Source: Coptis chinensis
Taxonomy: Eukaryota; Streptophyta; Magnoliopsida; Ranunculales; Ranunculaceae
DNA length: 64,000 nucleotides
Direction: 5' to 3'
NCBI GenBank assembly: GCA_015680905.1
Contig: CM027378.1
Span: 72,011,501-72,075,500 of the forward strand
Shown here: piece after piece, positions 6,358-47,982 of the stretch
How the letters are laid out: each line of letters opens with the position of its first letter
Numbering within the stretch: position 1 is the stretch's first letter
The notes under the pieces: generated by a model
Database searches by the model: none
Seen by the model: only the letters and a program-made list of their open reading frames with translations
What the model was told of the DNA's origin: nothing
Translations under genes and position numbers: made by a program

Positions 6358-6362
<5 letters not shown>

Positions 6363-6417
<55 letters not shown>
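6363..6417. repeat. (TA)n microsatellite
   Basis: About 27 uninterrupted TA units inside the E1 3' region, flanked by T-rich sequence. The ORF crossing it (poly-Lys, poly-Tyr/Ile) is a by-product. Confidence 0.95.
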
Positions 6418-6425
<8 letters not shown>

Positions 6426-25963: not shown

Positions 25964-27150
25964 TGTAGAATCCTAATATCATGTTAACAGCACTAATACG
26001 TAATCCTACCGTTCTTACGTTTAAATCAATTCTTTTTACTCTCAAGTCATAATCATGCAATATAATGAGTAAGGATTCGTTCCACTCTTAAACCCTCAAG
26101 ACTTAAATTGAATTCAACTAATCAAACCCAAAAGGAACAATGGTGAGAGTAATGATTTGATGTGAATTTTCTATTCTACCATTCCCAACAATTGAATCTA
26201 AACAAGACATAATATAAAGATTTGAACTTTATTTGTTTAAACTCAATTTGAAACTACTCATGCAATAATTGAATTAAACTAATAATGAAAAATAAGTAAA
26301 TCTAAGGATTTAAGCTAATAAATAAATGAAAATGAAACTAGATTATGGAGAACTAATTAACTTTATTTATCTAATAGAACAATAAGAACAAGATATGATT
26401 GAATGAATAACAACTATTTTATTTATCTAATGAATGATATTCAATGATTTAAATAACTAAGCTAAAACAAAGAATGAAACTAATTAATGGAATGAAAACT
26501 AAGTAATTAACTAATCTAGATCTAACTTTTTCTAACCCTAAACTCCATTAACATTAGCTTCCTAACCTCACTGCCATTAACAAAGAGTCAAGCTTTTGTT
26601 TTTATATTTTCAGATCCAAAAATCGTGCATGGGCTTGGAGTCATGTTTTGGGCCGGAAAATCGGGCCAAAAACCCAATTCTTTCAGTCCAAAAAGGTCTC
26701 TTCAGCTGCAGTTGGCTTTGACAGAATTTTCGTCCACTTCTGCTCCTCTGATTGGGTCAAGGCTTGGACCATTGGAAAGCTCTTTCCGAATCGGTCGTTT
26801 TGACGTAAGGTAGGCCCAATTCCGAGGTCTAAGTCCAAAGATATGGTCTTCGGAAGTTCTGCTGACTTTGTGTACTATTTCTGCCCGCGTGGACTTTGAC
26901 TTTTCATCTTTTGACTGGGCTTTACAAAAGCTTTGTCTCCTTGAATCTTGACCTTTATTCACAGAACTCCTTAGTAACCGACCTTTGCTCCTTTATCTCG
27001 CTAAAGTGGCACATTTCTGCACATAATAGACTTTGAAGCCTGAAATACATAAAAACACGTAATCAGTATTAACTCTTAATTATTACTCACATAATTGGTC
27101 TAAAAGTATGATTGTTAAGGGGTTAAAACTACGGTTTTGGGCTCTTATCA
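25964..27150 (-). repeat. N LTR, diverged short variant (3' LTR of N3)
   Basis: It ends GCTCTTATCA at 27150, followed by the PPT region. The U3 half matches other N LTRs well, but the U5-side half is clearly different and the LTR is shorter (about 1.19 kb). A matching piece of the same variant, sharing ATCCTACCGTTCTTACG, occurs at 35059-35124 on the far side of N3, so the two are its 3' and partial 5' LTRs. Confidence 0.8.
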
Positions 27151-28975
27151 AACCACCCCCAAACAGCATTTTGCTTGTCCTCAAGCAAATATGAGAAATT
27201 AGAATAAGTGACCAAAAATGGAGTTCTATCTACTCTCGTTTCGCTGAGTGCGATTGCATTGACCATATGCAACAAGGCCTTAAACCACTAGGAATTCCCT
27301 AGTGGACGAGTTATAACCTCGTGAGAGTTTTCCAAAGGAAGGTACTCACAAACTTCATCTATACTACAACGACTAAGAAATAAAACTATTGTTTCCTCAA
27401 TCATGTCTCAACTATCTATACATCTCACTAGCAATTGAATAAGAATAACCAAGTCAAAACCTAAACTAATATATGCATAATAATCAATCATCTATGATAC
27501 AAATATATATACTATGAGTAATACTATGAAATGCCTAGCGGGTTCGTTTCTGAAAACTTCGGAATAAGCGTCCCTTAAGTAGGTTCTCACATAAATGTCA
27601 AGACAAAACCACTCGATTTTTACTTTGCTCAAGTTTAAGCTACTCCATTGTGCGGTGGGCACACTTTTACCTTACAATCTCAATGACAACAAGGAAGCGG
27701 AGTCGATCAAACACATCTGCCACTTACTATCACACTAACCTATTCCTAATTGAGCTAGAGGTCTTTATTAGGTGTTGCATGGGATTAGGAGATGGTTTAA
27801 GAAGGAAGGAAATGGATATTCAAAAGGACAAGTCCGAGATAATAGAGTCTTCATATTATGTAACTTAGAAAAACCTTGTTATTTTCTTTTTTGCTTCTAT
27901 ACTTTGTTTCCATCCTTAGCCATATTTTTTCTTTTTCTTTTCTTTGGCTTTTGACTCCCTTTTATTCTATTTTTGGAGTTTTTATTTATTTATATTTTTT
28001 TTTTTCTTTTCCTTGGATGGAAACTTCTTTTCTTTTTCTGAAGCAACTAACTAATTTTTGTTTACACATATTTTTCTCTTCTTCTTTCTTCACTCATTCT
28101 ATTCTCAGACTTATTCTAGATTGGGTAAGTTGATTTTTTTTTTTTGTTTTGTTTTTGTAATGGGGTAAAGAAATTGTGGTTTATGGAAGGCTAAAGAAAG
28201 GCTCGAGGGGCTTACTAGCGGAAAATAATTCATAGGTTTGAATTTTTGGCTATATCGATCCAAAGAGGGCCTAAATTCTCGCTTAGGATATGGCATAGTG
28301 ATCAAGCAAGTGGACGTGTGATTTCTCTATCCGTTTTACTTCTCCATTGTGTCATTTCTCAAATGTTTAGCTTCATATAAGGCTTTAGGCTATATATTCT
28401 CACAGGATTTTGTAGAATAAGTACTCTAGCCTAGATTTCAGAAACTTACTACTAACAATCATAGATACTCATGTAATATATTTATAGATAGATGTAAAGA
28501 TTATTACCTACATATTAACCTAAGTTTCTAACAATTATTCTGATGCAAAAGCTACGCGTGAGACTTCTAGATTGTTAAGAGCATAGAGAAAGAAAACAAT
28601 ACCAATATTCCTAAGTGTATAACATAAACTTATTTATTTATATTTTTAAAATTTTTAACTTGAAAACAAATGCATATTATACATATCTAGATCCTAACAG
28701 ATGCCTTAATTACACGTATTTCTATGCCCCCCCCCCCCCAAACAAGAAGCATGCTTTGTCCTCAAAGCATTTAAATAAAGAGGGTAGAAAAATACCATAG
28801 AAATGCGTGAAATTCTGGAACATCTGCAAAACAAGGTTAGAACATACTAATATAGGAAATAAAAAAGCGGACGCGAACTCTATAAGAGTTCCACCCATTA
28901 TGGGGTTAATGTAATTAAATTGCTTGGGACATAAGCGGGCACTAACCGAAACTAAAACTTACCTCCACTCCAGTT
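27151..28975 (-). other. N3 3' region with PPT and two hairpin modules
   Basis: PPT-type tract at 27163-27151; AGGA hairpin TTTGCTTG/CAAGCAAA at 27189-27170; long AT-rich region without a gene; second AGGA hairpin ATGCTTTG/CAAAGCAT at 28770-28751, followed on the sense strand by a G13 run (28739-28727). Confidence 0.82.
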
Positions 28976-29770
28976 TTACATTTCATCGTCATCCTCCTCT
29001 TCTATAAAGAAGTGAGGTTCCTTCGCATCCTGCCATGTCATTATAATTTGCCAAGCTTGCCGCCATTTATCATCTACAGATCCTAACCTGTTAAGCACCA
29101 CTTGGTCAGATGGGGTGTAAGGTGCAACCAGATGAGGTTGTATCCTCCACCCTTGCCAAGTCATTGCACGGAAAGATCGAATAATAGAATTGGTGGGTCT
29201 CACAATGTCGACCCCAACCCAGTCCGTGAAATGGGCACAAAAAATAAGGAAGAAACATAGTATAATACGGCAAACTAATATAGGCATAAGAAGATACTTA
29301 TGCCTCATGCTATGGGCTCGTGCTAAACTAGACATTAAGGTCTTAGGAAGGTCATATAGCAGGCGTTCCTCAGCTAAAGCAAGGAAAACATCGCAAGTGG
29401 CATCATTCGCAGAAGAAAAATGCCACTCCCCTAATATGTTTAGCATGATAAAGAACATTACCGTATCACATTAAGGGACAAGCTACCAAGGGCTACGTTA
29501 TATGTCCCTTGGTCCTCTACACGGAAAATGCCGGACCCATAAGCCTCATGCAAAAAGTCATAAGTGTAGACATGCATATTATCTACCCAATAGCATCATG
29601 GGTCTTGTATTTTAGCGGCATGGCAAGTCCAAGAACAAATGCTAGCAAGAACCATAAGCGGTTCCCAGCCTACGTGTGTGATTACCTCGCGAAACCAAGC
29701 ACCATAAGTAGTGCTTTGAAACAAATCTTTGAAAGACTGTTCCGGTATTATTGTAGGAGATGTCATCTCA
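28976..29770 (-). pseudogene. N3 ORF2b, fossil
   Basis: It matches the family at FIMLNILGEWHFSS, MRHKYLLMPILVCRI, AMTWQGWRIQPHLVAPYTPS and the acidic C-terminus. The frame begins near 29770 with the MTSP-type start region. Broken, with about three to four breaks. ORF2b is the last cistron before the 3' region, as in all N copies. Confidence 0.73.
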
Positions 29771-29844
29771 AAACTACGCTCTGGAACAGCTGGAAATCAC
29801 CCGGGAACAACCCGCAGAAAACTGGAAATTTCCTGGTCTATGGA

Positions 29845-30000
29845 AGTCAGGGCGCGAGTGCGCTCTGAAGATTTTGGAATTCCAGTGTTTGAGCGCGAGT
29901 CGCGCTCACCTTGGGCGCGAGTGCGCTCTGTACAAAAATTCTGAAAAATGTGTAGGGCGCGAGTGCGCTCCTCTGGGGCGCAGGCGCGCTCCGAGGTGCT
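29845..30000 (-). other. GC-rich palindrome cluster in N3 ORF2b leader
   Basis: Five near-palindromic units of the form GGGCGCGAGTGCGCTC lie within about 150 bases. One is GAGCGCGAGTCGCGCTC, an 8-bp self-complementary unit around one base. The cluster lies between the internal TATA region and the ORF2b start and contrasts sharply with the AT-rich surroundings. Related clusters occur at 16480-16660, 34118-34230, 41830-41960, 44030-44070 and 48340-48472. Confidence 0.75.
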
Positions 30001-31300
30001 GATTTGTGAAAATGGTGAAGAACAACGGGAAACGTGGGAGTGAAAGGTGAGAGATGGAAGTTAGGTGTAGTGTGGGTTGTGAGTGTAGAATGAATGAAGT
30101 TTTTATAGGTTTTGAATTGTTAAAACGAATCGGTAGGTTACCAAAAAGCTTTAAGGCAATTTCCTCGAAACAATAAAATTTCCAACCCGAAACGGAAACA
30201 ACTCATATATTCTTGATTCTATAATAACCCTAATATCTTTTATAATTGGATTTAGACTAGTAACTTCTAAACTCTCTTTAGATTTCATCATACCACCACA
30301 TCTAATCATAGGTATGCCAATTCACGACAATATTCTCAACCTTCACTCCAAAACAAACTCTAAAATGGAGGATCTTCTACAAATCATGATAGAATAAATA
30401 ATACCACCCCCAAACAATTCGGGAAGGTGGGATTAACAATAAAATCCATGCACAATTTGAAAAGAACAACATTATATTAAAATTGTAATTCAAACAACAT
30501 TTAACTACCAAATTCAAAGTTAACTACGGAATTTAACAACGTAACATCCTATCTACTAAAAATAATAAAAGACAACATCAAAACAACAAATAAAGAGAAA
30601 TCTAGCTACTCTTAAAGGGAGCGAGGTGGGGATAAGAATAGGAAGTTTAGTGATCAAGCATGGAAAAACCAAACACCCCACCCCCAAACAAATTTTTGAA
30701 AACAGGTTTGTAAAAATTTGTTTTAAAACGTGGGTCTTTTAAAGTCAGATTCCCTAGACTTAAAGTGATATATATGTATTTACATGCAGTTTCCCATATA
30801 TCAATAATCTAAAAGGTTGTGGGTCTTTCTACAAATAATTAACATGGAATGCACCATCAAACAAAATTAAGCACCAAGATTTCCTATGACGTAGCTTAGT
30901 GGAATAAGAGTAAAGCCTTATAGATCTAAAACCTAATCGAGCATACAGCTTTTTTTGTCCTCCCACGGGCGGGATGCCAAGTAAATGAACGCGGAGAAAA
31001 TTGATGGTTGTGGAAGATAATGTTAGGATGTGGATAATTTTGAGAAGGAAAAAAAATGGAAAAAATGAAAAAGTGTCGGTGGCTTGTCCTTGGGTGTTAC
31101 TTCTTCACTAGTTGGTTTTAGATAGTTATGAAGCATAGGAGAAACGCCAAGGTCAAGTACAAACTCAATGGTTCTTTGAAAAGGTAGAGGGCGGGGACAT
31201 GCGTGATGGAAGGTGAATGAGTGACATGAGGATGTGAGGTGTGGGTGAATGGTGTTCAACTAGTGTTCTTAGGTCTATATCATCGAGGCCTTGAGATATG
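30001..31300 (-). other. N3 inter-cistron region with two G-tract hairpins
   Basis: A TATA-like ORF2b upstream segment (about 30095-30105), a CCCACCTTCC...GGGGGTGG module (30425-30396), and a module in which the sense strand reads AAACAAATTTTT, a 14-base loop, AAAAATTTGTTT (12-bp stem, 30723-30686), immediately followed by GGGGGTGGGG (30685-30676). I recognise no ORF2a in N3. Confidence 0.7.
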
Positions 31301-33847
31301 CAAGACATTCCTCAATAGGTGGGTAAGAAGAATCACCGGGATAGAGGGCGAAAAATTCTTCTTCCGTCCATGGCGTCAAGAGATGAATGGATGTCAATAG
31401 GAGAGAACTTCGCGAGGCGGCAAGAAGGGTTGCAAAAGAGTCAAAGGAAATCCTCCTTGATGTTATCTACGTCTAGGGAGTAGAAATTGTGATCCTTATC
31501 TTCTTCCATAAGAGGGGTATCTACTAGTGTGGGGACTAAAGTGTCAGCCGCACTAATGTGAGGTACAAAACTCTCAATGGACTTCACTTCCCTTCTACAG
31601 GCAAACCTAGTTGTCCCCGTGTTTGTCTAAACATGTTAACTTCTACGAAAAGATTTCCAAAAGTAAGAGTCATTGAGCCATCCCGACAATTAATATGGGC
31701 ATTGGCGGTTGCCAAGAAAGGACGCCCTAAGATGATGGGAATGGAATCATGAGCAACTTCTGTGTCAAGAATAACAAAGTCGGCCGGATAGTAAAAATCC
31801 TGAACTTTAACGAGAATATTTTCAACTACACCCTTGGGATACTTAATAGAACGATCGGGCTAACTGCAAAAGTCATTTTGGTTGGTTGAAGTTTTGTTAG
31901 ACCTAGTTGTTTATATAAATAAAAAGGGAGTAAGTTAACACTTTCCCCCGTGTCTAATAAAAAGCGGTTGTTATGAAGGTATCACCTAAGGTGCATTGTA
32001 CAAGATAGGATCTACCCGAGGGTCCTTGTACTTAACAATTCCGTTATGTTCAGATAAAGAGGGATATTGTTCAGTTAAGAATGCTTCGTGGGGCATGTTG
32101 GTTTTCCTCTTCTTGGTGCACAACTCTTTTAGAAACTTAGCGTGTCTAGGTAGACTTTTTATAGCTTCTAGAAAAGGTAGGTAAATAGTCAAATTTTTAA
32201 ACACTTCCCTAATCTCATCAAAATTCTCGTCCTTTTTAAACACAACTAGTCTTTGGGGATATGGTGTTTTATCGCTATTTTTAGCAGAAGGGATAAAAGT
32301 TTTATTAGTCTTTGCTTTATCTCTAGCCGTTTTCCAACTAGGTGTCCATCTTGGAACCTCTACAGGTGTAGGGTCTTCACTTTCTATTATTGGGTCTTGT
32401 AATGTTTTCCCTTTTGGTTGTGGTTTAACTGGTACTTCTACAGTTGTAGGGTTTTCAGTTTCTATTATAGTATTTGGTATGGCATCATTTTTAGTTTGCG
32501 GGTAATCTTTAGGCAACTTGGTTATCAACTACTCGCCCTGAACGAAGGGTAGTGACTGCCTGTAGGTCCCCTTGGTTTATATTACCATTACAAGAAATAC
32601 CGCTTTTTATTTCAAAGGCGGTGTTTGTTGACTTAGGATTAGGCATTTGCTTGACTTGGAAACACGGGTTTGGTTATTATTTTGGTTAGAAGACATGTCA
32701 ATAACCTTTTGGCATAAAGACTGCATCATTTGCATCGTTTGTTTCATCATATTAGAGTTTTGATCATCTTTGATCTTTCATCAAGTTGGAGTTTTGTTGC
32801 ATAATTTGATTTTGGTTCTCCAACAAGGTCACTACTACTTTGTCCGTAGATGGTTGTATTGGAATTAAAGCTTGTTGGCGCTCATGTCTTGATGTTGATA
32901 GTTCTGGTTATGGGTACTAAACCTCTATTCTGGTCACCTAAGTTCCCTTGTCCTTGATGTTGAGTTAACCTGGTTGAAGTGTGATGGTTGTGGTGGTGTT
33001 TGTGCATAGACAAGAGGACAATAGAAGTCGGAATGCTCAAGACTACAAATGACATTACAACGAAGTAGAGTTAATGTTCATGACCGGAGTGGGTTGTTGT
33101 TGAACATAGATGGCATCTAACTTTTTAGTGAGGGCATCGATAAGAGTTTTAAGCTCGGGATCATGTTTAACCTCAAGAGAAGAAGGAGAGGAGCCGGGAG
33201 GAATCGTTTCCTCCCAATTGTTGTTTCTTCTTAGATTGATCTTCTAAGAATTTATAAGCCTCTAAGGCTCCTTTACTAAGAAAGCTACCCCCAGTCATGA
33301 TATCTAGAACCTCCTTATGATAATGTGAAAGCCCCTTGAAGAAAGAACGAACAAGCGTGTCTTTCGCAAGATTATGATCTGGGCATTCAATGAAAGATCG
33401 ATGAAACGATTCCGTGCCTCCGAAAAGGATTCATGAGGATTCCGGGTGAAGAAATGAATCTTATGAAGCATTTCATCTGTCTTTAGTGGTGGGTAAAATT
33501 GTTCCATGAACAATTGAACAAGTTGAGCCCATGAGTCCACAGAGTTTGGCGTTTGGGCAGTTAACCAAGACGCCGCCTTTGTCGGCTAGGGTGAAAGGAA
33601 ACACCCTAAGTTTAACTTGATCCGGACTTACGCTTAGGATGATGGAATGTAGTGAGAACTTGGTCTATCCCACGCGATGTGTGTTGTAAGGCTTCTCGTG
33701 GTCTAAACCATGAAAAACTGGTAACAAGTTAAATATATTAGGGGATTCGAAAATCCCCACTAGGTCTACAAGAATGATGCACCACTTAGGGCCATCGTTT
33801 AGGGCTTTATAAAAATCGGAGAGAGGAGTCTCTTGTTCTTTAGCCAT
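31300..33847 (-). pseudogene. N3 gag-PR, fossil
   Basis: It starts MAKEQETPLSDFYKALND. A gag core is seen (LVQLFMEQFYPPLKTDEML and ARNRFIDL, about 33304-33540), then the Gag end (PYPQRLVVFKKDENFDEIRE, FLEAIKSLPRHAKFLKEL, about 31986-32300), then a protease-type region with a GRP(F)LATANA-like stretch near 31700. Reverse transcriptase, RNase H and integrase are not seen before ORF2b, so the family would need pol from elsewhere. Broken, with about six breaks. Confidence 0.77.
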
Positions 33848-35058
33848 TGATGCAAGTGTAGTGTGTGAAATTTTAGATAGGCGTGTTGTATTTTTATTTC
33901 TATGAAAAACAAGCCTGATTATACTAGAATTAAAACTCCTCCTCGTAAGAGGCGAGGAGGGAAGAAGGAGTACCGAATGCCTCCTTGCTACGCGTTTGAA
34001 TAGCGTCTTGTATACGCGATCTCAGTGTATTTAACAAGTTAGAAACACTGAGTAACTTGAAGACATAAAAATTTGCATTTACCTATGAAAATTGGGCTGT
34101 TCACACTGAATTTTCCCTTGAGGGTGCGAGTTCCCTCTGTTTGGGCGCGAGTGCCCTCTGTTTTGTCGAAAGTCCAGTGTTTTGGGCGCGGTCGAGCTCG
34201 GTTTGGGCGCGGGTCGCGCTCCAGAGTTTTCAAGGTTTAGGCCTTTTATCGTACTCCAAAAAATCTGAAATTTTTACAGTAATTTGCTAAGACGTCTATC
34301 AAGTAGCCTGTAAAATTTCAGATCAATCGGAGCTGTGAAAGTCCCTCTACAGTCCTTCAAAGTTTTCAAAACGGTTTTCGGACACAATACAAACAAACGA
34401 ATGGTTAACCCATCAAAACAAATCCAAAAATTGCCAAATTTTTACTGGAGACTCCTGACATATCCTAATTGTTCCTGTAAAAAATTTAGAGCAATTGGAG
34501 TTCTACAACTTCTCCTTATTGGCTGGTGTTCCAGATATTAAGTGTTTGCAACACTGCAGAAACACACTGGAAACACTCTACTATTTAGGAGGTCAAAACA
34601 AATAAAAAACTCATCAAATTTTTACTACAAACTACTGACTTAGGATACATACTCCTGTAAAAATTATAGAATTTTTAGAACTCCCTAAGTAACCTTACTC
34701 GTCTGTTTTTCAAGAACATACGGTGTGAAAACTGAAATGCAGCACTGTAACGATCGTATTTTTTTCACAAGGTAAACCAACTTTGAAAAATCTGAAAATA
34801 TTCCAGTAAATCAACAACACATTATATATTATGTATGAAAATTTTCAGAATTTTCGAAAATTTAGAAATACCTTCACTACAGTGTTTTTCTCTGTGAATC
34901 CGCAGCCCCTATGCCTGAAACAATGAACAGTTCCGAAAATTCAAGAAATAAGAATGAAAAATTAAAAGGGTGGGTGGGTAGAGAATGGGGGATTGCCCCT
35001 TGGATTCAAGCAATTGAATTCTTGTCTAGAACGAGATTAAGATGGCAGCGGTGCCATT
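33848..35058 (-). other. N3 leader with GC palindromes and primer site
   Basis: No gene seen in about 1.2 kb between gag and the primer site. A GC-rich palindrome cluster is at 34118-34230. The primer site at 35041-35056 reads (minus) TGGCACCGCTGCC, one base different from the other N primer sites. The rest is AT-rich. Confidence 0.68.
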
Positions 35059-35124
35059 TGATAAGACATAAAAATGAATAGTCTTACCTACGAAATCCTA
35101 CCGTTCTTACGTTTAAATCAATTC
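35059..35124 (-). repeat. N3 5' LTR, end piece only
   Basis: It starts TGATAAGACATAAAAATG next to the primer site and matches the N3 3' LTR variant from ATCCTACCG onward. It stops at about 35124, where a 20-base piece of ORF2b end (35125-35144, same as 29000-29019) and then tRNA-like sequence follow. Confidence 0.78.
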
Positions 35125-35148
35125 TTCTATAAAGAAGTGAGGTTAAGA

Positions 35149-35223
35149 TGTTACGTTCTGGAGTGGTGAGTATTCCCGCCTGTCACGCGGGTGACCCGGG
35201 TTCGATCCCCGGTAGCGGCGCCA
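35149..35223 (+). tRNA. tRNA-Asp(GTC)-derived copy joined to an N LTR
   Basis: From 35162 to 35223 the sequence has the parts of tRNA-Asp: D-arm end, anticodon stem CCCGC/GCGGG (35175-35179, 35187-35191) with loop CTGTCAC and anticodon GTC at 35182-35184, variable loop TGAC, T stem CCGGG/CCCGG with loop TTCGATC, discriminator G at 35220 and CCA at 35221-35223. The 5' acceptor and D-arm start (35149-35161) match poorly. Nuclear plant tRNA genes do not normally encode CCA; here it abuts the LTR two bases later, exactly where a primer tRNA would sit. It therefore looks like a copied primer rather than a gene. Whether it can be transcribed is unknown. Confidence 0.88.
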
Positions 35224-35225
35224 TT

Positions 35226-36734
35226 TGATAAAAGTTAAAATGAATAGTTTTACTAATGAATAAAGCGATGAAACTCTAAACGTAAGTAAAACTAAACGAT
35301 AGTTTACGTGCCTAATTTATCAAAGTTTCTACTCTCAAATCTATCGAAATAGAGTGGAGTAGGAAGTTCGTTCCACTCCTAGGGCTCTAGCATGGAATTG
35401 TTTTCTAATCTAATTAGTCGGTCTTAAGTCTAATGAGAGCTTTACGAAGGGGGAATTATACTACGATGCAATATGAAAAGCAATATGTTGAATGTCACTA
35501 CGAAATATATGGAAATACTAATGTTCTTGAATCTAGATAAAAGATTATAGGGGAATTGAATCCACCTCGAATCCAACTTGATAACCTAGCATAGATTCTT
35601 GTATCTCGATTCTTACGTTCTTACGGCAAGAATTTCGAGTTCTAATCCCTAGTGTTCATGGCATTTCTACCAAATACTAACTAGCATGTGAGGTCGTCCA
35701 CCCATTCTCATGGCGAATCACGACCTTCTAGAGTGGAATAGATTCTACAACGCTTCTACACTAAACCACTAAGTTTTCATCAAAGCTTCATCAACTCCTC
35801 TAATGGAGGTTTTAGCCTTGAGTCATCAACCCATCATTTCCCATTGAAATTGAATACAACATATTACAAAGATTCTAACTTTATGAAATTTAACTAAACA
35901 ATAATCGAAATCTAATTAATTAACTAAGAATGAAATAAGAACAAGAATTTAAACTAGATCTATAAATACAAATGACAAAAATCGAAATTGAATAATAATA
36001 ACTATTTTATTTATCTAATTAAATGATGAACAATCATTCAAGGAATTAAATAAAACAAGATATGAAACTAATTAAATTAAACTAATTAAATCTAAGGAAA
36101 ACTAGATCTAGAATTAATTAATGGAGGCTACTAATCTAATTCTAATCTAGGTCTAACTATCTGACATTAACAAAGAGTGAAGCTTTGGTTTTTATACATT
36201 CAGATCCAAAAATCGTGTATGGGCTTGGAGCCATGTTTTGGGCCAGAGAATCAGGCCCAAAACCCAATTCTTTCAGTCCAAAAAGGCCTCTTCAGCTGCA
36301 GTTGGCTTCAATAGACTTTTCGTCCACTTCTGCTCTTATGATCGGGTCAAGGCTTAGCCCATTGGAAAGCTCTTTCCGAGCCGGTCGTTTTCACATAAGG
36401 TAGGCCCAATTCTGAGGTCTAAGTCTAAATATATGGCCTTCGGAAGTTTTGCTGACTTTGTGTGTTGTTTCTGCCCGCGTCGACTTTTCAGCTTTTGACC
36501 AGGCTTTAGAAAGGCTTTGTCTTCTTGAATATTGGCCTTTAATCACAGAACTCCTTAGCAACCGACCTTTGCTTCTTTATCTCGTTAAAGTGGCACATTT
36601 CTGCACATAATGGACTTTGAAGCCTGAAATGCATAAAAACACGTAATCAGTATTAACTCTTAATTATTACTCTCATAATTGGTCTAAAAGTATGATGGTT
36701 AAGGGGTTAAAACTACATTTTTGGGCTCTTATCA
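35226..36734 (-). repeat. N LTR with tRNA copy on its primer side
   Basis: 1509 bp; left end TGATAAAAGTTAAAATG, right end GGCTCTTATCA, followed on the right by PPT-side internal sequence. With 36735-37453 on its right and the tRNA on its left it has the structure of a 3' LTR still attached to its primer. Confidence 0.9.
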
Positions 36735-37453
36735 AACCACCCCCAAACAGCATTTTGCTTGTCCTCAAGCAAAGATGAGAAATTAGAATAAGTGGCCAAA
36801 AATGGAGTTCTATCTACTTTCGTTTCGCTGAGTGCGATTGCATTGACCATATGCAACAAGGCCTTAAACCACTAGGAATTCCCTAGTGGACGAGTTATAG
36901 CCTCGTGAGAGTTTTCCAGTGAATGTACTCACAAACTTCATCTATACTACAACGACTAAAAAATAAAACTATTGTTTCCTTATTCATGCTCTAAATTAAC
37001 TATACCTCTCACTAGCAATGCATATAGAGTAGTCAAGTCGAAACTTAAGTTAATATATGCATAATAATCAATCATCTACGAATAAACATATATACAATGA
37101 GTAATGCTATGAAATGCAGTAACAGGTCCATTTCTGAAACTTTGGAATAGCGTCCTTAAGTAGGTTCTCACATAAAGGCAAGACAAAAAATCACTCTGAT
37201 TTTTCCACTCAAGTTTTGCTACTCCAGTGTGCAGTGGGCATACTTTACCTTACAATCTCAATGACACACAAGGAAGCCGAAGTTGATCAAACACATCTGC
37301 CACTTACTATCCCACTAACCTATTCCTAATTGAGCTAGAGGTCTTTATTAGGTGTTGCGGGGATTAGGAGATGGTTTAAGAAGGAAGGAAATGGATATTC
37401 AAAAGGGACAAGTCTGAGATAATAGAGTCTTCATATTATATAACTAGAGAAAA
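36735..37453 (-). other. N 3' internal piece between two LTRs
   Basis: 719 bases of the standard N 3' region: PPT, AGGA hairpin (36773-36754), then AT-rich sequence to an ...AACTAGAGAAAA stretch. There it joins CCA and the next LTR at 37459. No coding sequence is present. Confidence 0.85.
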
Positions 37454-37458
37454 CCATT

Positions 37459-38960
37459 TGATAAAAGATAAAATGAAATAATCTACCTACGAAATGAACG
37501 ATGAACTAAAAACGTAAGTAAACTAAACTAATCTTATGATGCTCATATTTATCAAAGATTCTACTCTCAAGTCTATGAGATATAGTGGAGTAGAGTGATT
37601 CGTTACACTCTTAGTCCTTCCGCATGCTATGTTCTCAAGTGTAAGTACTCTCTACTTAAAGTCTAATGAGAGATTTACGAAAAAGGCAACTAGACTACGA
37701 TGCAACTACCCACGAAATGCAACTAGTCGACGATGGGAATAACTAAGGGAATGCTACGTTGATTCTATGATAAGGAGTTAGAGGGGGATTGATTCCACCT
37801 TAACTCGACTTAATCCTATTAATGACAAATCGTCGTAATCCGAATTGAACTGCTTCGCAGAACAATTGGTTCTTCCTAATCCCTAATTACACATGGCATT
37901 CCTACCAATTTATAACTAGCATGTGAACGATTAAACCCATTCTCATGGTGAACTAATCGTTTCTAGAGTGGAAAGGAAATTACGACGATTCTACGATATT
38001 CGGAATCAAGCTTTCATCAAGGCTTCTCAACCCCCTCTAATGGAGGTTTAGCCGAGAATCATTACGCAATCATTTCCGATTACATTTAAACTAAACATGA
38101 TATAAAGAATTGAAATTTACTTAATTAAACAATAATGAAATCTAATTTAACGACTCAATGAAATAAAGACAGGAATTGAAATTAGATCTAGGAATGGAAA
38201 TGACAAAATCGAAATTGATAAAAATACTACTTTATTGATATAATCAAAATGAAGAACAAGATTCAAAGGTTTAATCTAATACAATAATTGAAATGGAACT
38301 AAACTTAATTAATCTACATGAAAAAACTAGATCTAGAATTCATTAATGGAGGCTACTAATCTAATCTATTTCTAGGTCTAACTATCTACCATTAACAAAG
38401 AGCTAAGCTTTAGTTTTTATACATTCAGATCCAAAAATCGTGCATGGGCTTGGAGCCATGTTTTGGGCCAGAGAATCAGGCCCAAAACCCAATTCTTTCA
38501 GTCCAAAAAGGCCTCTTCAGCTGCAGTTGGCTTCTATAGACTTTTCGTCCACTTCTGCTCCTCTGATTGGATCAAGGCTTAGACCATTAGAAAGATCTTT
38601 CCGAGTCGGTCGTTTTGACATAAGGTAGGCCCCATTCCGAGGTCTGCGTCCAAAGATATGTCCTTCGGAAGTTCTGCTGACTTTGTGTGCTGTTTCGGCC
38701 CACGTCGACTTTTTAGCTTTTGACCGGGCTTTTAGAAATGCTTTGTCTTCTCGAAACTTGGCCTTTAATCACGGAACTCCTTAGTAACCGACCTTTGCTC
38801 CTTTCTCTCGCTAAAGTGGCACATTTCTGCACATAATGGACTTTGAAGCCTGAAATGCATAAAAACACGTGTCGGTGTTAACTCTTAATTATTACTCACA
38901 TAATTGGTCTAAAAGTATGATCATAAAAAGGGTTAAAACTACAGTTTTGGGCTCTTATCA
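37459..38960 (-). repeat. N LTR, 3' LTR of the fullest copy (N1)
   Basis: 1502 bp, preceded on the left by only CCA plus two bases of the primer site. Its first ~110 bases follow one LTR variant (TGATAAAAGATAAAATG) while the rest matches the LTR at 48622-50131 closely, so it is a mosaic. Confidence 0.9.
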
Positions 38961-40859
38961 AACCACCCCAAACAGCATTTTGCTTGTTCTCAAGCAAAGA
39001 TGAGAAATTAACATAAGTGACCAAAATGGAGTTCTATCTACTTCTCGTTTGCCGAGTGCGATTGCATTGACCATATGCAACAAGGCCTTAAACCACTAGG
39101 AATTCCCTAGTGGGCCGAAGTTATAACCTCGTGAGAGTTTTTCATGAAGGTACTTTCGAAACTTCATCTATACTACAACAACTAAGAAATAAAACTATTG
39201 TTTCCTTATTCATGCTCCAAACTATCTATACATCTCACTAGCTATGAACAAGAATAACCAAGTCAAAACCTAAGCTAATATATGCATAATAATCAATCAT
39301 CTATAATAAACATATATACAATGAGTAATACTATGAAATGTCTAGCAGGTCCGTTTAAAACTTCGAATAAGCGTCCTTAAGTAGGTTCTCACAATAATAG
39401 TCAAGATACAACACTCGATTTTTCCACTCAAGTTTAGCTACTCTATTATTGCGTGGGCACACTTTACCTTACAATCTCAATGACAACAAGGGAAGCCGAG
39501 TCGATCAAACACATCTGCCACTTACTATCACACTAGCCTATTCCTAATTGAGCTAGAGGTCTTTATTAGGTGTTGCGGGGATTAGGAGATGGTTTAAGAA
39601 GGAAGGAAATGGATATTCAAAAAGGACAAGTCTGAGATAATAGAGTCTTCATATTATGTAACTAGAGAAAACGTTGTTATTTACTTTTGCTTCTACACTT
39701 TGTTTCCATCCTTAGCCATATTTTTCTTTTTCTTTTCCCCTTTTTTTTTTTTTCTTTGGCTTTTGACTCCCTTTTATTCTATTTTTGGAGTTTTTATTTT
39801 ATTTCTATTTTTCTTTTTCTTTTCCTTGGATGGAAACTTCTTTTCTTTATTTTCTGAAGCAATTAACTAACTTTTGTTTACACAGGTTTTTCTCTTCTTC
39901 TTTCTTCCTCATTCTATTCTCAGACTTATTCTAAATTGGGTAGGTTGATTTTTTTTTTTTTTTTTTTTTGTTTTTGTTTTTGTAATGGGGTAAAGGGATT
40001 GTGGTTTATGAAAGGCTAAAGAAAGGCTCGAGGGGGCTTACTAAGCGGGAAATAATTCATAGGTTTGAATTTTTGGCTATATCGATCCAAAAAAGGGCCT
40101 AAATTCTCGCTTAGGATATGGCATAGTGATCAAGCAAGTGGACGTGTGATTTCTCTATCCGGATTTTACTTCTCCCTTGTGTCATTTCTCAAATATTTCG
40201 CTCATATAAGGTTTTAGGCTATATTCTCACAGGATTTGTAGAATAAGTACTCTAGCCTAGATTTCAGAAACTTACTGCTAACAATCATAGATACTTATGT
40301 AATATATTTATAGATAGATGCAAATATTATTACCTACATATTAACCTAAGTTTCTAACAATTATTCTGATGCAACAGCTACGTGAGACTTCTAGATTGTT
40401 AAGTGCATGGAGAAAGAAACAATACCAATATTCCTAAGTGTATAGCATGAACTTATTTATTTATATTTTTGAATTTTTTTTTAAAATTTTAACTAGAGAA
40501 CAAATGCATATTAACTCTATCTATATCCTAACATATGCCTTAATTACACGTGTTTCTATGCCCCCCCCCCCCCAAACAAGAAGCATGCTTTGTCCTCAAA
40601 GCATTTAAATAAAGAGGGTTGGAAAAATACCATTGAAGCGTGAAATTCGGAACATCTCAGAAAACAAGGTTAGAGCGTACTAATATAGGAAATAAAACCC
40701 ATTACACAACTCTATACGAAGTTCTACCCATTATGGGGTTAACAAGAATGAAATTGCTTGGGACATAAGCGGACACTAACTAGAATGGAAACTTACCTTA
40801 TCCCCCGCATTACTCGTCATCTTCCTCATTCTCTTCTTCCATAAAGAAGTGAGGTTCCT
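38961..40859 (-). other. N1 3' region with PPT and two hairpin modules
   Basis: PPT at 38973-38961. Hairpin TTTGCTTG/CAAGCAAA at 38998-38979, whose loop reads AGAA instead of AGGA while the stem is intact. A long AT-rich stretch without a gene. Hairpin ATGCTTTG/CAAAGCAT at 40604-40585, followed on the sense strand by a G13 run (40573-40561). Confidence 0.82.
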
Positions 40860-41744
40860 TTAAGGTCTGCCATGCCATGCCATGATAATTTGCCCGGCTT
40901 CCCGCCATTTATCATCTATTATTGCTAACCTATTAAGAGCCACTTGGTCCGGACGGGTGTAAGGTGCAACCAGATGAGGTTGTATCCTCCACCCTTGCCA
41001 AGTCATTGCGGAAAGATCGAATAATACTATTGGTGGGTCGCATGCGATTAATCGACCGTAATCCAATCCGTGAAAGCGTGTACAAAAAACAGGAAAGAAA
41101 CATAGCATAATACGAGAAACTAGAACGGGCATAAGAAGGTACTTATGCCTCATGCTATGGGATCGAGCTAAACTAGACATCAAGGTTCGGGGAAGGTCAT
41201 GACACATACGTCCCGTGGCTAAAGCAAGGAAGACGCTGCAAGTGGCATCATTCACAGAAGAAAAGCGCCATTCCCCTAAAATGTTTAGCATGATCCAAAA
41301 CATAACAGTTCCTATGTTCATGGACAGGCTACCAAAGGCGACGTTATATTCCCCTTTGTCCTCAATACGGAATATGCCCGCGCCATACGACTCATGCAAA
41401 AACTCGTAAGTGTAGACATACATATTATCGACCCAATAGCACCATGGGTCTTGTATTTCAGCGGGCATAGCCAGTCCAAGAACAAATGCTAGCAAGAACC
41501 TGGTAATTTCCATTGGTTCATTATCAATGTTGATGGAGAACACTTGTTCTCCATCTGGTCTTTCAAAGAAAATGCAGTTATCGTAAAAATAAGATGCTAG
41601 AGTCGGAGAATAAAGTGCATCCGGTCTTACCATAAGCGGCTCCCAGCCAACGAATGTGATCGCTTCGCGAAACCAAGCACCATAAGTAGTGCTTTGGAAC
41701 AAATCTTCGAAAGACTGTTCCGGTATCAATGTTTGAGATGTCAT
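40860..41744 (-). pseudogene. N1 ORF2b, best preserved copy
   Basis: The longest open copy of the family. I place the start at 41744 (MTSQTLIPEQSFEDLF), because the same start occurs at 21681 and the longer frame reads back into the GC-rich leader. Conserved parts are YGAWFREAITFVGWEPLM, an aromatic YFYDNCIFFERPDG segment, NEPMEITRFLLAFVLGL, SMNIGTVMFWIMLNILGEW, MRHKYLLMPVLVSRIM and DDKWREAGQ. It is an Athila ORF-1-like / putative plant transposon protein. The role is unknown; env-like function has been suggested for ORFs in this position in Athila elements, but I see no signal peptide. Nearly open, with about one break. Confidence 0.78.
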
Positions 41745-42366
41745 CTCAAAATTACGCTTTGGAATAGCTACGAATGATCCGGATACTACGCACAAAAAAC
41801 TGGAAATTTCCTGGTCCACGGAAGTCGTATGCGAGTGCGCTCGATAGAAGCCTGATGTCGCTCTGAAGAAATTGAAATTTCCAGTGTTTGAGCGCGGGTC
41901 GCCCTTCGGCTTGAAGCTGAGGCCTCGACAAAAACTCAGAAAAATATATCTGAGCGAAAGCGCTTCGAGTTGCGTAAACTTCGGAAAATGAGCCGAAAGG
42001 AGGGAATCGCGGGAGTGAAAGGTGAGTGATGGAGTTTAGGTGTAGTGTGAGTTGTGAGGATAGATTGTATCAAGTTTATATAGGTTTAAAGTTGCTAAAA
42101 TGGATCGAAGTTGCCAAAACTAATTACGGCAGGTTCGAAATCCTAAAATTTCCAAACCCGAAAACGGAAACAACTCATTTCCTTGATTCTAATTCAAACC
42201 CAGTATCTTTTAGGTTGATTTTATGATAGAATATACCTATTTAATCTAGATTTCATCCTACAATGATACTCAATCATAGATATGCCTAAACGGCCATATT
42301 TTTTCACCTTGACTCAAAATAAATTCTAACACGAGGGTTATAAAAATAATGCTTGAATTGATAAAA

Positions 42367-42393
42367 CCACCCCCAAACAAGTTGGGAAGGTGG
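42367..42393 (-). other. N1 hairpin with G tract after ORF2a
   Basis: The sense strand reads CCCACCTTCCCAACTTG then TTTGGGGGTGG; CCACC/GGTGG plus CCC/GGG can pair around the loop. It is the same element as at 21031-21058. Confidence 0.6.
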
Positions 42394-42543
42394 GATCAAT
42401 ATGAAACAACCACGCATATTGAAAATAACCCCTTATATTAAAATTTTCATTCGGAGTACATTACACTACAAAATTCAAATTACGGAAATAAACTTGCATT
42501 AAAATAAATAACAATAATGAAATTACAAATAAAACATAAAACA

Positions 42544-43720
42544 TCAAACTATACTATCCCTAGCTACTCCGAAACTGGTGGCGGAGGGAACATGCTCCGG
42601 AGACTGCTCCTGAGTTCTTGAAGAGCCAGCACCATTTGTCCTTCGGCGACGACGCTCGTGCCTGGATGGTGTGTCCTCAGAAGGAGAGTCCTCGTGAGGT
42701 GGGAATCGTGTCAGCAACTCATCCCGGAACTGGCGCTGAGCTTCTAGCTCGGCGCTCATCTGTTCCCACCTCTCGCCCCTCTCTCGGGTGCGGAGCTCGG
42801 TTGTGATGCATCGCTGTTCGCCGAGTCCGGAGGTCTTCACAGATAGTGTTAAGCGACGCGATGCCTCGATGGATCACAGCCATGCGTTACGCATCGCCGG
42901 CAAGACCTCTCCAAGGCATCCGAAGTCAAAACAGGTCAAGTCCTCCTCATCCCTCGGAGGCATCCCCGATGTCCCCCAGCCTCCTCGGCATTCTCAGCTC
43001 CTCCATCATCTTCTTCTTCTTCTTCTCTATCCTCAGCCAATCTCCAAACCCGTTGGACACACTCCTTATAGATCACGAGGGTTACGGTGGAGAGTGATGT
43101 ATGTCCGATCGGTCGCTTTGCTGAAATGCTCAACTTGAGCATGATCTTTGTTATCAACACGGGGAGAGGGCAACAGACCTCCCTACTCCCCTAATCATGC
43201 TCAAGTAAAACTCTAAGATCAGAAAGTCATACTTCCGCTCTGGAGTATCCATAAGATATGGAGGCGCTTCAGGCCGATATCGCCGACCTTCCCTTCCCTA
43301 GACGTTCGACCAATCCATCGGGTCAGAGTAGCCGGTGGTTGGTCCTAAGGGAAGCCACGAACACAATGCGATCTTGCATTGTAGTCCCCTCAATAACTGT
43401 CTCGTGCATCAATGGTTCTACCCCATTATGCTGGGACTCCTGCAGGGTGACATCATCGAGGATGGATTCTAGGCGGAATGCCTAGAATCTCACCAACAAC
43501 CCGATCGTCACTTCCTTCGCCTCTTACGCCACAACAACAAAAATCCTCGTCCCCTTCCAACTCCCTCAGATCATAGAACCGTCCGGACTAAGTCCTCGTG
43601 GTAATAGGCTTCAGTCGAGTACCACAAGCTATTCCAGCCTCGATCATCTCTCGTCACCGTAAAAACGGTCGCGAAGTGGTCGGCGGTAAAAGCTTGCTCG
43701 CAAAAATTCGGCGTGTTGAG
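42544..43720 (-). pseudogene. N1 ORF2a, fossil
   Basis: It carries the same core as the copies at 19734-20864 (an EILGIPP-type stretch near 43480, LPVLITKIMLKL near 43150) and a C-terminal part reading TRERGERWEQMSAELEAQRQFRDELL, likely helical or coiled, then an Arg-rich HERRRRRTNG tail. It lies between gag-PR and ORF2b. Broken, with about four breaks. Confidence 0.7.
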
Positions 43721-44503
43721 CCATTGGAAGTTTGGAATGTAGTGGGGGTTTAAATGTGATGTAGTGGTGGGATTTTAATCGACCGGTTGAAGCAACAGTG
43801 GTGGTGGTGGAGTGGTGGCGTGACAGCACCAAAATTTTGAATTTTCGGTGGTTTTTAGTGATGTAAATCGGTAGTGGTGGTGGTTGGTGGTGTTTGGAAT
43901 CGATTTGGGTTGGGATTTGATTTGGGGCGTGGGTTAATTTTAGTTTTCTTTTTATTTTGATTTTGTTTTTTAGGTTTTTGGAGCTTGGGCGTTAATGGCG
44001 GATGGAGAAGAAGATCGCGAGTGCTGCTAAAGGTAAGGGCGCGGTCGCGCTGTCGGTGGGCGCGGGTTGGGCCCAAGCCCAAAATCGAAATTTGTGATTT
44101 TTTCCGATTTTTTGCGAAACTTCAAATCAAAATTGCCGCTTCGTTACCGGTCCGATTTTTGCAAATGAGATATGGAAATGATCAGGAGAGAATTTCCAAT
44201 CCAATGATCCATAAAACACTCCATTCCGACCATGGATGACGTATAAGATAGTGGAAAACGCCTCGTAGTGCGTGCATGACATACGTTATGCGAACAATTG
44301 AACTCTAAATTCATGGATTATGTCAACCCGAATCGTAATATAATAAAACGGCCTAAGCAACTCTAATGGGACATAAATATTTAGTAATGAAACACGAAAG
44401 CACCCCACCCCAAACAAATTTTACAACGAAGCTTAGAAAATTTGTTTTAGCAATAATGTCTTTTAAAGTCGATTCCCGACTTCCTAGGTTACTATGCTTA
44501 TTC

Positions 44504-44574
<71 letters not shown>

Positions 44575-45000
44575 TTAATTTTAAAAAGAAAACAATAAAC
44601 AAGAATGACATAATTCACCCCATAGAGAAACATGACTCAAAAATCCGAGAAAACATGCAAGAGTGGAAAACGTGAATTATGTTTCAACGTGGACTTAGGT
44701 TCCGGTACTTACAGCCACACACTCCATAGAGAGGGCTCGGTTACCTTAATGGTGCACTCTCCAATATATATGGAAATGAAAGGAAATGCACCAAACACAA
44801 AAGTTGAGTCGTTTATAGTCAGATACTCGAGACTTTATCTAGACGTATCTATGAACATGCAGTTTATCATATATCAACAACTGAAATAATTGTGGATCAT
44901 TCCATAAATAAATATCACAGAAAACATATCCAAACACAATCAAGCACCAAGATTTCCTATGACTCAACCTAGTGAAATGAAAGCGAAGTCGGATAACCCT
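43721..45000 (-). other. N1 region between gag-PR and ORF2a
   Basis: No gene recognised. It holds a GGT-rich stretch (about 43799-43815), a small GC-rich palindrome cluster (44030-44070), the post-gag module in which sense AAACAAATTTT/AAAATTTGTTT (11-bp stem, 44447-44412) directly precedes GGGGTGGGGTG (44411-44401), and a (TA)n microsatellite (44507-44571). Confidence 0.65.
44507..44571. repeat. (TA)n microsatellite
   Basis: About 32 TA units within the N1 region downstream of gag-PR. The corresponding place in N3 (about 30770) has only TATATAT, so the array expanded in this copy. Confidence 0.93.
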
Positions 45001-45239
45001 ATTATGTAACCTATCATGCACCTTATTTTTCATTTTTGAATGAGTGGGTGTTCTAGTAAATAAGGGTGGAAAAGTAAATGGTTGTGGAGAATATGGTGGA
45101 TATGGATAAGTTGTAGAAAGACAGCCTGTAAACAATGAGGATGAGGTTTTAGCACAAAACTCATTCATTGTGTGTGTAGGGATTGTCTCAATTCTGAAAA
45201 TGAAGGTGTCGAGTGGTTTGTCCTTCTGTAGTATTTGTT

Positions 45240-47982
45240 TACTAGGTGGATTTAAAAAAATTATGGAGCACGGAGAAACAAAAAAGGATCGAGTGCAAAC
45301 TCGAGATTCCTTTGAAAGGGTGGAAGGAGGGAATCGAGGTGGATGTTGTGCAAAGTAGTTCTTGATAGGGTGATTCATCACCATCTCGAAGAAACTCATC
45401 AAATTGCTCATCTAGATTGGTCATATCCTCGTTACTATGATAGTCCTCTACATCTTTGAGAAAGTCATCTATCTCATCCTCATCCGTAATATGTGTATCG
45501 ACTAGTGTAGGGATGGAAATGTTGAGTCCGAACTTCCAAAGGAAAGAAATTTGGGCATATGATTATCGTGGAACGTGTTGTTGTTGAAATAATCTCGAAA
45601 GCAACGCCTCTCGATCATGCTAACCTCTCCATCCATAAACGAATTGGGTAACTGTGTCTTTGTTTTAAAAACATTGACTTCAACAGAAAGATGGCCAAAA
45701 GACATGGACATTGAACCATCATGGCAATTAATGAGCGCATTGGCAGTTGCCAGAAAAGGACGCCCTAAGATGATCGGGACAGAGTCGTTAACGACTTCTG
45801 TGTCGAGGATGACAAAATCAGCCGGATAGTAAAAATCCTGAATTTTTACTAGAACATTTTCGATGACACCCTTAGGATACTTAATAGACCGATCAGCTAA
45901 TTAGAACGTCATTCTAGTGGGTTGCATCTTGTCTAGACCTATTTGTCTATACAAATAAAACGGGAGTAAGTTTACACTAGCCCCCAAGTCTAATAAGCCA
46001 GATGCGTCGATATAGGAATCTCCTAAGGTGCATTGTCTGATGGATCTACCGGGGTCCTTTGTACTTAACAATTCCATTATGTTCGATAGAGTTGGGAATT
46101 GTTACGTTAAAAGAGGCGCTTTTTGTATATTGGTCTTACGCCTAGTAGTACACAATTCCTTAAGAAACTTAGCATGGTGTGGTAGCTTTTTTATAGCTTC
46201 GAGGAAGGGAAGGTTTATAGTTAGGTTCTTAAAAATATCCCTAATCTCCTTGTAATTTGTATCCCTAGTTAACACGGCTAATTTTTGTGGAAACGGTGGT
46301 TTCTGTCTATATTTAGCAATGGTATTACCTGGGTGTTTAACCGTGGCTTCCTGTTTCTTAGGTTTTGTTGTAAATGGTACCTCTACAGTGGTAGGCTCTT
46401 CAGTTTCTATTTCGGTATCTAGTAATATAGCAGGTGTAGGGGGTTATCGGGTGTGGTAACTATAGGCATAGTTACTTTGTTATCAACCACTCTGCCGAAT
46501 CGAGAGTGGTGATGGCCTTTAGCTCACCTACATTTTCATATTCACTACTAGTATTATCGGTTACCTCAAAGGTCAGTATTTGTTGTTTTAGGATTAGGTA
46601 TTTCGTTACTTGGAAACACACCTTTGGGTTGGGCTTTATCTTGAGCCAACTGTTTGGTTAAATTATTAACGGATTGTAGAAGCTGTTGGTTAGATTGAGC
46701 CATGGTTTGGAAAAGTTTTTGGCTCACTTGTATGAAGGTGTCAGGACGATCCGGTTGTGTGGGTGTAGTAGTCACGGATGGTGTGACTGGAACTATTTCA
46801 AGTGAATTATTTATGGGTGGATTTGGGTAGTTATTATTTACCTGAACGATACCTCTACTAGCATTATAATTATTATAACTACTTTGACCTTGTGCTTGAC
46901 CTTGTCGAGGTTGCACTTGGTTGTTATAATTATTAAAATTCCCCTGACCCTGTCCTTGTCATAGTGGGGCTTGGTTAAAGTTGTGCGTAGGCCTAACATA
47001 TTGGTTATTGTACCCTTGAGGTGTGACGTTTTGGTTATTTCTCCAACCGAAGTTGGGATTTTGTCTCCAAGGGGCGTTAGGTTCACTATTAATGGAACAA
47101 GCCTGTTCATAGGCTATAGGACAGTGGGAGTCGGGATGCTCAGGGCTCCAACAGAAACTACATGGATTTGAATTTACATTCATGACGGGGATTGACTTTT
47201 GTTGTACAGAAATGGCCTCTACCTTTTTTGTGAAGGATTCAATTAGAGTTTTAAGCTCAGGATCTGATTTAACCTCAAACATACTTGGTAGCCTTTAATC
47301 AAGAAGAAGAACTAGCGGAGTGGGAGAAATCGCCACTACCCCCCCCAGTTGTTATTTAAAACTTAGTTTGGTCCTCTAAAAATTTATAAGCCTCCTCAAG
47401 CTCCTTTGCTTAAGAAACTACCCCCATTCATTATGTCAAGGACTTCTTTATGGTGGTGTAGAAGTCCTTTGAAAAAGGCACGAACTAACGTGTCTTTTAA
47501 GCTAAGTTATGATGTGGACACTCTATAAGGAGATCGGTGAACGATTCCAAGCCTCGAAAATGTTTCATGAGGATTTTGTCGAAAAGAAATGAATCTTGGA
47601 AAGCATCTCATCCGTCTTTAGGGGTGGGTAAAAATGTTCCATAAACAAATGAACAAGTTTAGCCCACGAGTCCACGTAATTAGGCGCTTTGGGCGCTAAC
47701 CAAGACGCCGCCTTATCGGGCTAAGGTGAAAGGGAATACCCTTAATTTAATTTGTTCCGTACCAACCGTAGGATGGTGGAATGTTGTTAGGACTTGTTCA
47801 ATCCTGCGCATGTGCTGATAAGGTTTTTCATGGTCTAATCCATGAAAAACGGGTAACAAATTAAAAATATTTGGGGGGATTCAGAAATCCCCCGGTGGGT
47901 CTGCTAGAACGATGCAAGATTTGGGGCTATCGCTCAAGGCTTTGTAGAAGTCAGAGAGAGGCCTCTCTTCTTCATCGGGCAT
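45240..47982 (-). pseudogene. N1 gag-PR, fossil
   Basis: I place the start at 47982 (MPDEEERPLSDFYKALSD) by comparison with N3. A gag core follows (about 47400-47880), then KSDPELKTLIESFTKKVEAI and a CCHC knuckle CSFCWSPEHPDSHC (spacing 2-4-4, about 47130-47175), an Asn/Gln-rich segment, the Gag end, a DLGAS-type protease region (near 45990) and a VPIILGRPFLATANALINC-like stretch near 45750, then an acidic tail. No RT or integrase follows. It would make the particle shell and protease. Broken, with about seven breaks. Confidence 0.8.

Follow-up and report, generated by a model that had tools for sequence, protein, structure and literature searches.

Copies of the tRNA-Asp primer joined to LTR ends of an Athila-like retrotransposon family in Coptis chinensis

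Results

A tRNA-Asp copy between partial elements

The window, the whole 64,000-nucleotide stretch of Coptis chinensis DNA analyzed here, contains a copy of mature tRNA-Asp(GTC) that runs from nt 14 to the CCA (62 nt; 35162-35223, plus strand) and whose sense strand is opposite to the adjoining retrotransposon, copy A. Next to it lie two bases, TT (35224-35225; AA on the element strand), which separate the LTR end from the PBS or tRNA and were kept unprocessed, followed by LTR A (TGATAA...TTATCA; 35226-36734, minus strand) and, on its PPT side, by 719 bases of the 3' internal sequence of copy A (36735-37453, minus strand), up to a join with copy B. All of this bears out the first-pass annotation, which had described a CCA-bearing tRNA copy adjoining an LTR, in the orientation of a primer, with 719 bases of 3' internal sequence behind the LTR. 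The copy differs from tRNA-Asp by a single change, C to T, at the 11th base from its 3' end. ARAGORN called a 77-base tRNA-Asp(GTC) at 35147-35223 (plus strand), within which the tRNA-Asp match is confined to 35162-35223, 35147-35161 being unrelated sequence; Rfam at gathering cut-offs gave no match anywhere in the window. That a tRNA finder took a fused copy for a tRNA-Asp gene calls for caution in annotation.

Copy B (37459-50131, minus strand) has its 3' LTR from 37459 and its 5' LTR at about 48622-50131, the two being 94.7% alike, and a normal PBS (48607-48619, minus strand) with a 13-nt match to tRNA-Asp followed by the leader ATCTTAG. At its U5 end, CCATT (37454-37458), i.e., three tRNA/PBS bases plus TT, is joined to the internal sequence of copy A; the homologous sequence at locus L087 reads AGAGAAAACATTG and the join itself AGAGAAAACCATTTG. 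Judged from this comparison, the second join also lies at short microhomology and is similar in type to the tRNA join. Copies A and B are about 82% alike over a shared 2.2 kb and are not sisters.

Past the tRNA, the order on the minus strand is about 65 bases of filler (35097-35161), a 38-base U5-terminal LTR fragment (35059-35096, minus strand), a PBS with one change relative to the family PBS (35044-35056, minus strand), and then the leader, the last three belonging to copy C (26398-35096, minus strand), which has the same orientation as copy A and a 3' LTR truncated at 26398. The earlier statement that no leader follows the tRNA holds for the next ~100 bases and fails beyond them, where the PBS and leader of copy C are present. 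One filler scrap (35089-35126) matches 25997-26034 (97% over 38 bases) and another (35122-35144) matches 40834-40856 (96% over 23 bases); the remaining filler could not be placed. The interval 25947-26397, bordered by the U5 end of an inverted LTR and by the truncated LTR of copy C, holds the 38 bases nearly identical to 35089-35126 and is perhaps another scrambled junction.

The term Athila-like was taken over from the first-pass annotation, and tRNA-Asp priming, 5-bp target duplications, and an extra ORF on the sense strand (40860-42035, in copy B) fit it. The Athila ORF-1 domain PF03078 was absent, and no Pfam family matched the extra ORF at E 0.01. This domain is reported from 16% of Athila elements and is thus not required, and 5-bp target duplications, reported for 93.4% of plant LTR elements, are a weak Athila marker (PMC6317226). 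Copy B is probably non-autonomous: it carries a protease trace (45580-45912) besides the extra ORF, and tblastn with the pol proteins of the window itself found no RT, RNase H, or integrase in it. Copy C retains a gag trace (33331-33567).

Recurrence and independence of the joins in the genome

We searched the 935.6-Mb assembly for LTR starts joined to tRNA-Asp. A 34-base pattern consisting of 26 tRNA bases and the LTR start had 63 exact matches, spread over contigs C1-C9 and two small contigs, while a 25-base pattern with 17 tRNA bases had 223, including 160 with 17-25 nt of tRNA; reversed-pattern controls had no genome matches. Normal PBS-LTR joins numbered 4504 (exact matches), so that joins with at least 17 tRNA bases represent 223 of 4727 exactly matching joins (4.7%) and those with at least 26 bases represent 63 (1.3%). 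The window junction had been interpreted as a single frozen reverse transcription intermediate, to be checked by searching for LTR ends fused to more than 25 tRNA-Asp bases. The 63 exact long joins rule out a one-off event, and this interpretation was not supported: there are at least 63 joins genome-wide, and four tested elements are LTR-bounded with a 5-bp target duplication.

We read 110 loci, comprising all 63 exact long joins, eight further long joins (among the matches listed by a score-ranked search, which favors long copies), and 39 of the 160 short joins (among those listed, all from C1 and C2 and the first from C3). Junctions were distinct in 70 of the 71 long loci. Across the 110 places read, flank and tRNA length were repeated together only in L015/L025 and in L093/L106/L109/L123, and the only duplicates seen among long fusions were L015/L025 and L143/L144. 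Automatic grouping gave 95 groups for the 110 loci and also merged loci that share a PBS/U5 neighborhood and differ in tRNA length or breakpoint, which we counted as distinct.

L093, L106, L109, and L123 have one flank and an 18-nt tRNA-Asp match in common and probably represent a subfamily with an ordinary 18-nt PBS, providing a natural comparison for the family with a 13-nt PBS. Given these four loci in the short sample, part of the 160 short joins are therefore not errors; if the sample is fair, this ordinary-PBS kind makes up about a tenth of them.

Origin of the fused tRNA

In the normal PBS of the family (window 12167, 18931, and 48617), the match to tRNA-Asp covers 13 nt and is followed by ATCTTAG. 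The fused tRNA runs past this 13-nt match, in the window copy and in the joins genome-wide, and mature tRNA with its CCA directly abuts the two unprocessed bases of the LTR.

The exact 35-base 5' half of tRNA-Asp, a search that covers genes identical in those 35 bases, occurred 23 times in the genome. Six occurrences were fusions already found (L009, L014, L017, L019, L065, and L091), and the remaining 17 comprised 12 genuine-looking tRNA-Asp genes, four extra fusions with a mutated LTR end (L129, L130, L143, and L144), and one truncated pseudogene. CAA-type sequence lies upstream of most of the 12 genes and T-rich sequence downstream of all except L133. None of the 12 encodes CCA, and their flanks differ from the fused flanks. 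Eleven are identical to the fused sequence, and L133 has A at nt 68. Among fusions, this A68 form was found in L028 and L076 (two of the eight loci from the score-ranked search) and in L129; both junction patterns fix G at nt 68, so that A68 is visible only in those eight loci and the four extra fusions.

Since CCA is present, tRNA-gene flanks are absent, and the PBS match covers only 13 nt, the sequences support the view that plus-strand synthesis copied the fused tRNA from the mature primer, as the first-pass annotation had proposed in suggesting that plus-strand copying ran through most of the tRNA. The sign that it had named as speaking against this, a longer tRNA-gene locus with its own flanks, was not seen. 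L143 and L144, separated by 12.4 kb on a single contig, carry an identical full-length tRNA fusion with LTR start TTTGACAAC and probably arose by local duplication.

For plant initiator tRNA-Met, 236 places had an 18-nt PBS match and none had 27 or 45 nt plus CCA; with about three expected at the tRNA-Asp rate, read-through may or may not extend to this primer.

Positions at which copying ended

Copy lengths, which chance matches blur by a base or so at each end, fell into classes. In the long set (n = 62, with one duplicate dropped and the eight score-ranked loci omitted), 21 copies were thinly spread over 26-61 nt, 28 had 62-66 nt, one had 67-70 nt, and 12 had 71-75 nt, with exactly the full-length tRNA in eight of these 12. 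Compared with a uniform distribution over 50 lengths, p was ~1e-12 for the 62-66 nt class and 0.019 for the 71-75 nt class. The short sample (n = 39) had four copies of 17 nt, 16 of 18 nt, ten of 19 nt, seven of 20 nt, and two of 22 nt, with none at 21 or 23-25 nt; one of the 20-nt copies (L091) resumes to full length past one mismatch.

The 18-20 nt class (33 of the 39 short copies, including L091 and the four copies of the 18-nt-PBS group) falls at the known m1A58 stop of retroviral plus-strand synthesis (PMC13191261), m1A58 being assigned by position. The 71-75 nt class is the tRNA 5' end, and the 62-66 nt class ends around tRNA nt 10-14, just before nt 10 or 9. An explanation of this last class as a microhomology effect was unsupported; microhomology was 0-3 nt in the nine junctions measured for it.

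All 63 exact long copies have A at nt 58, with no misincorporation there (a pattern that fixes other bases is blind to linked errors), which fits primers without the methyl group; L130, one of the extra fusions with a mutated LTR end, has T at this position. Copying of unmodified tRNA-Lys3 is reported to reach the end of the tRNA, and mutation of TRMT6 (the A58 methylase) to allow extension past A58 in cells (PMC13191261). In Arabidopsis, m1A58 is described as visible throughout nuclear tRNAs (PMC11658184). Near the second stop, m1A9 has been reported in human tRNA-Asp (PMC7293042) and m2G10 as a product of yeast Trm11-Trm112 (PMC8999500). In the literature searched, we found no plant modification behind a stop near nt 10: in Arabidopsis MSR-seq data, nuclear tRNA-Asp gave almost only full-length reads, in a library blind to stops near the 3' end (PMC11658184). 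In our reading, tRNA modifications would cause the copying stops.

Sequences joined to the tRNA

We placed the tRNA-side flanks of 72 long loci (L091 counted as long and the duplicate L025 included) by Blast against copy B. Sixty-five had a placed piece, the nearest at most 189 bases from the tRNA: 48 in the same orientation (33 in the LTR, seven in the leader/PBS, and eight internal) and 17 inverted (48:17, p = 1.5e-4); seven had none. Flanks of the short sample (n = 38) were in the same orientation in 21 cases, inverted in seven, and unplaced in ten. The same-orientation partner of 20 of the 72 long loci has its end in the interval from the PBS to about base 22 of the LTR, with 70-190 bases of filler separating it from the tRNA in four cases; this interval is where the minus-strand 3' end, the proper partner of second transfer, should be.

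Microhomology at the joins was modest but real, with a mean of 1.11 nt compared with 0.39 nt after shuffling (27 junctions, p = 5e-5), and further tRNA scraps, direct or inverted, were recognized by eye in the fillers of L026, L034, L039, L071, L073, L075, and L078. In likeness to the U5 scrap, the LTR of its own locus ranked within the top 10% in 12 of 31 cases (p = 0.004) and outside the top 10% in the other 19, which is a tendency only. At L105, L112, L113, L127, and L091, two U5 ends stand head-to-head, one or both of them carrying a tRNA copy, as a form of inverted two-LTR junction.

U3 ends and target duplications

In L009-L013, L017, L024, L026, and L028, and less surely in L021 and L023, the LTR next to the tRNA has a clean U3 end, TTATCA, that abuts unrelated flanking sequence. 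The PPT and internal sequence follow the U3 end in the window copy, L014-L016, L018-L020, and L025, whereas L022 and L027 yielded no U3 end. We sought a sister LTR for the 11 clean-U3 loci and found it for five, with none found for L009, L013, L017, L021, L023, and L026. In four of these five, a 5-bp duplication bounds the whole element with the tRNA inside. It is perfect in L010 (CTTAG; LTRs 96.3% alike), L011 (AGGGG; 97.0% over the 1129 bases covered), and L024 (AATAT; 95.3%), each perfect match having a chance of about 1 in 1000, and matches at 4 of 5 positions in L028 (94.4%). L012 has no target duplication despite its sister LTR (96.5% alike). Given the target duplications around these four tRNA-bearing elements, the tRNA join therefore preceded integration, and some fusion products at least completed the cycle.

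Discussion

As a class, the fusions are very probably best explained by failed second-strand transfer after read-through of the primer tRNA. An abundant Athila-like LTR retrotransposon family primes with tRNA-Asp, and plus-strand synthesis, starting from the PPT, would run through the LTR and on into the primer tRNA that remains attached to the minus strand. In the usual case, about 18 nt would be copied before the stop at m1A58, and the copied PBS would anneal to the minus strand. In a minority, copying would go past m1A58 and end either at a second stop, at about tRNA nt 10-14, or at the 5' end of the tRNA. Unable to pair with the PBS, the read-through 3' end would use 0-4 nt of microhomology to jump elsewhere, in some cases repeatedly; its target would mostly be minus-strand DNA, either of its own element or of one packaged with it, and would often lie near the PBS/U5 edge. 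Once completed, the product, LTR-AA-tRNA-[U5 scrap or other element piece]-(PBS-leader)-...-LTR, would be inserted by integrase and flanked by a 5-bp duplication. The window copy would be a 5'-truncated member of this read-through class, chained between two other partial copies.

This scheme builds on direct observations of the tRNA source, the length classes, the orientation bias, the microhomology, and the target duplications. The choice of strand that jumps and the location of the jump in the particle are suggested by the scheme, and misdirected second-strand transfer would be the main route. Recurrent failure of second-strand transfer would then account for about one (long joins) to five (all joins, less the 18-nt-PBS subfamily) per 100 exactly matching joins. 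Against this reading, the inverted (17 of 72) and unplaced (7 of 72) partners are not explained by a jump onto minus-strand DNA alone, L012 has no target duplication, and the sister LTR was not found in six of 11 loci. A jump into U5 also needs minus-strand DNA past the PBS, and the textbook scheme has no such DNA. The Arabidopsis tRNA-Asp reads and the U5 scraps that are not particularly close to their own LTR (19 of 31) count against the reading as well.

The short PBS may bear on how often transfer fails. In the yeast elements Ty1 and Ty3, the PBS is reported to be inherited strictly from the element (PMC7472051). By analogy, the 13-nt match held over 4504 copies would fit strict inheritance, and with it even a regular 18-nt strand would end in mismatched bases, which may explain the frequent errors of this family.

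Nuclear end joining, in which unprocessed linear cDNAs with copied tRNA at the U5 end are joined by DNA repair to other cDNAs or chromosomal breaks, with microhomology and templated filler, is in our judgment an unlikely account of the class. It is compatible with failed second-strand transfer and may apply to some of the loci, including the window copy. The chain in the window fits it, with the end of copy B plus CCA joined to copy A and the tRNA of copy A joined to a scrap of copy C, as do the LTRs that still carry PPT and internal sequence, the head-to-head U5 joins, and the inverted partners. However, end joining alone does not give elements whose two LTRs are bounded by 5-bp target duplications, such as L010, L011, L024, and L028, nor the excess of same-orientation partners. 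The first-pass proposal that a short tRNA-LTR-3' end product was joined into DNA is unsupported as a general account, and it could still describe the window copy, which, with 719 nt of internal sequence, an LTR, and the tRNA, is 5'-truncated and chained and could still be an end-joined linear product.

Two further explanations are very improbable. Had one ancestor gained 62 nt of tRNA as a heritable long PBS, the copies would be its descendants. The common 18-nt match and flank of the four 18-nt-PBS loci are of this kind, but the long loci vary in tRNA length, partner, and LTR start, and these different junctions refute inheritance for the long class. The joins are known from the assembly alone, and an assembly artefact hardly agrees with 63 exact joins on so many contigs, with their individual junctions and target duplications. 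Capture of genomic tRNA-Asp genes, or LTR insertions into them, is scarcely credible: the tRNA part is identical to such genes, but CCA, encoded by none of the 12 genes found and refuting this origin, and TT stand between tRNA and LTR, and the gene flanks differ.

Failed second-strand transfer after read-through has partial counterparts in known systems. Over-extension of plus-strand strong-stop DNA on tRNA-Lys3 in HIV-1 is likewise copying past A58, to the tRNA 5' end in vitro, if A58 is unmodified (PMC13191261). It was reported from in vitro work or cultured cells, with a full-length product described as not usable (PMC13191261), whereas the Coptis fusions are integrated genomic copies, involve tRNA-Asp and a plant-type element, and show a further length class near nt 10. 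The complex LTR elements made by template switching in Triticeae likewise arose by abnormal reverse transcription and were each integrated once, with a target duplication (Sabot and Schulman, 2007; PMC1950507), but they have a third LTR and two cores attributed to a jump between R regions, and the main text of that study contains neither 'tRNA' nor 'PBS'. A tRNA-Gly copy at the 3' LTR of an HIV provirus is also a mature, 5'-truncated tRNA with CCA beside an LTR (Gurgo and Franchini, 2025; PMC12220202); that tRNA is not the HIV primer, the case comes from one cell clone, and its authors propose self-primed tRNA copying. Helenus TRIMs also link tRNA-like sequence to an LTR element, but there the tRNA is described as lying inside the LTRs and as inherited (PMC10886601), whereas in the Coptis fusions it lies outside the LTR and was joined each time anew. 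The window copy is not a Helenus TRIM, which has the tRNA-like sequence inside its LTRs and is shorter than 1 kb. In the open-access literature, searched mostly at title and abstract level, we found no description of plant LTRs with copies of the primer tRNA integrated next to them.

Earlier studies of the stop on the tRNA primer used in vitro reactions and a small number of cell systems; here, about two hundred natural outcomes were found in an ordinary assembly, with the copying end and the next site of the strand both recorded at near single-base resolution. Primer modification state, errors of second-strand transfer, and the origin of chimeric elements thereby become testable by counting in any plant genome. 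More tentatively, with the balance of probability somewhat against it, the fusions could be regarded as a natural, genome-archived primer-extension assay, according to which reverse transcriptase would regularly meet tRNA-Asp lacking m1A58, a second roadblock would lie at nt 9-10 in the tissue of movement, and failed transfer after read-through would be a steady source of chimeric integrable elements, favored by the 13-nt PBS.

Two other repeats were noted in the window. A near-perfect inverted repeat of about 80 bases (44504-44585) is related to 6340-6440, and a direct repeat of 1.7 kb, 98% alike, occupies 3722-5449 and 52258-53985, with no connection to the tRNA finding seen.
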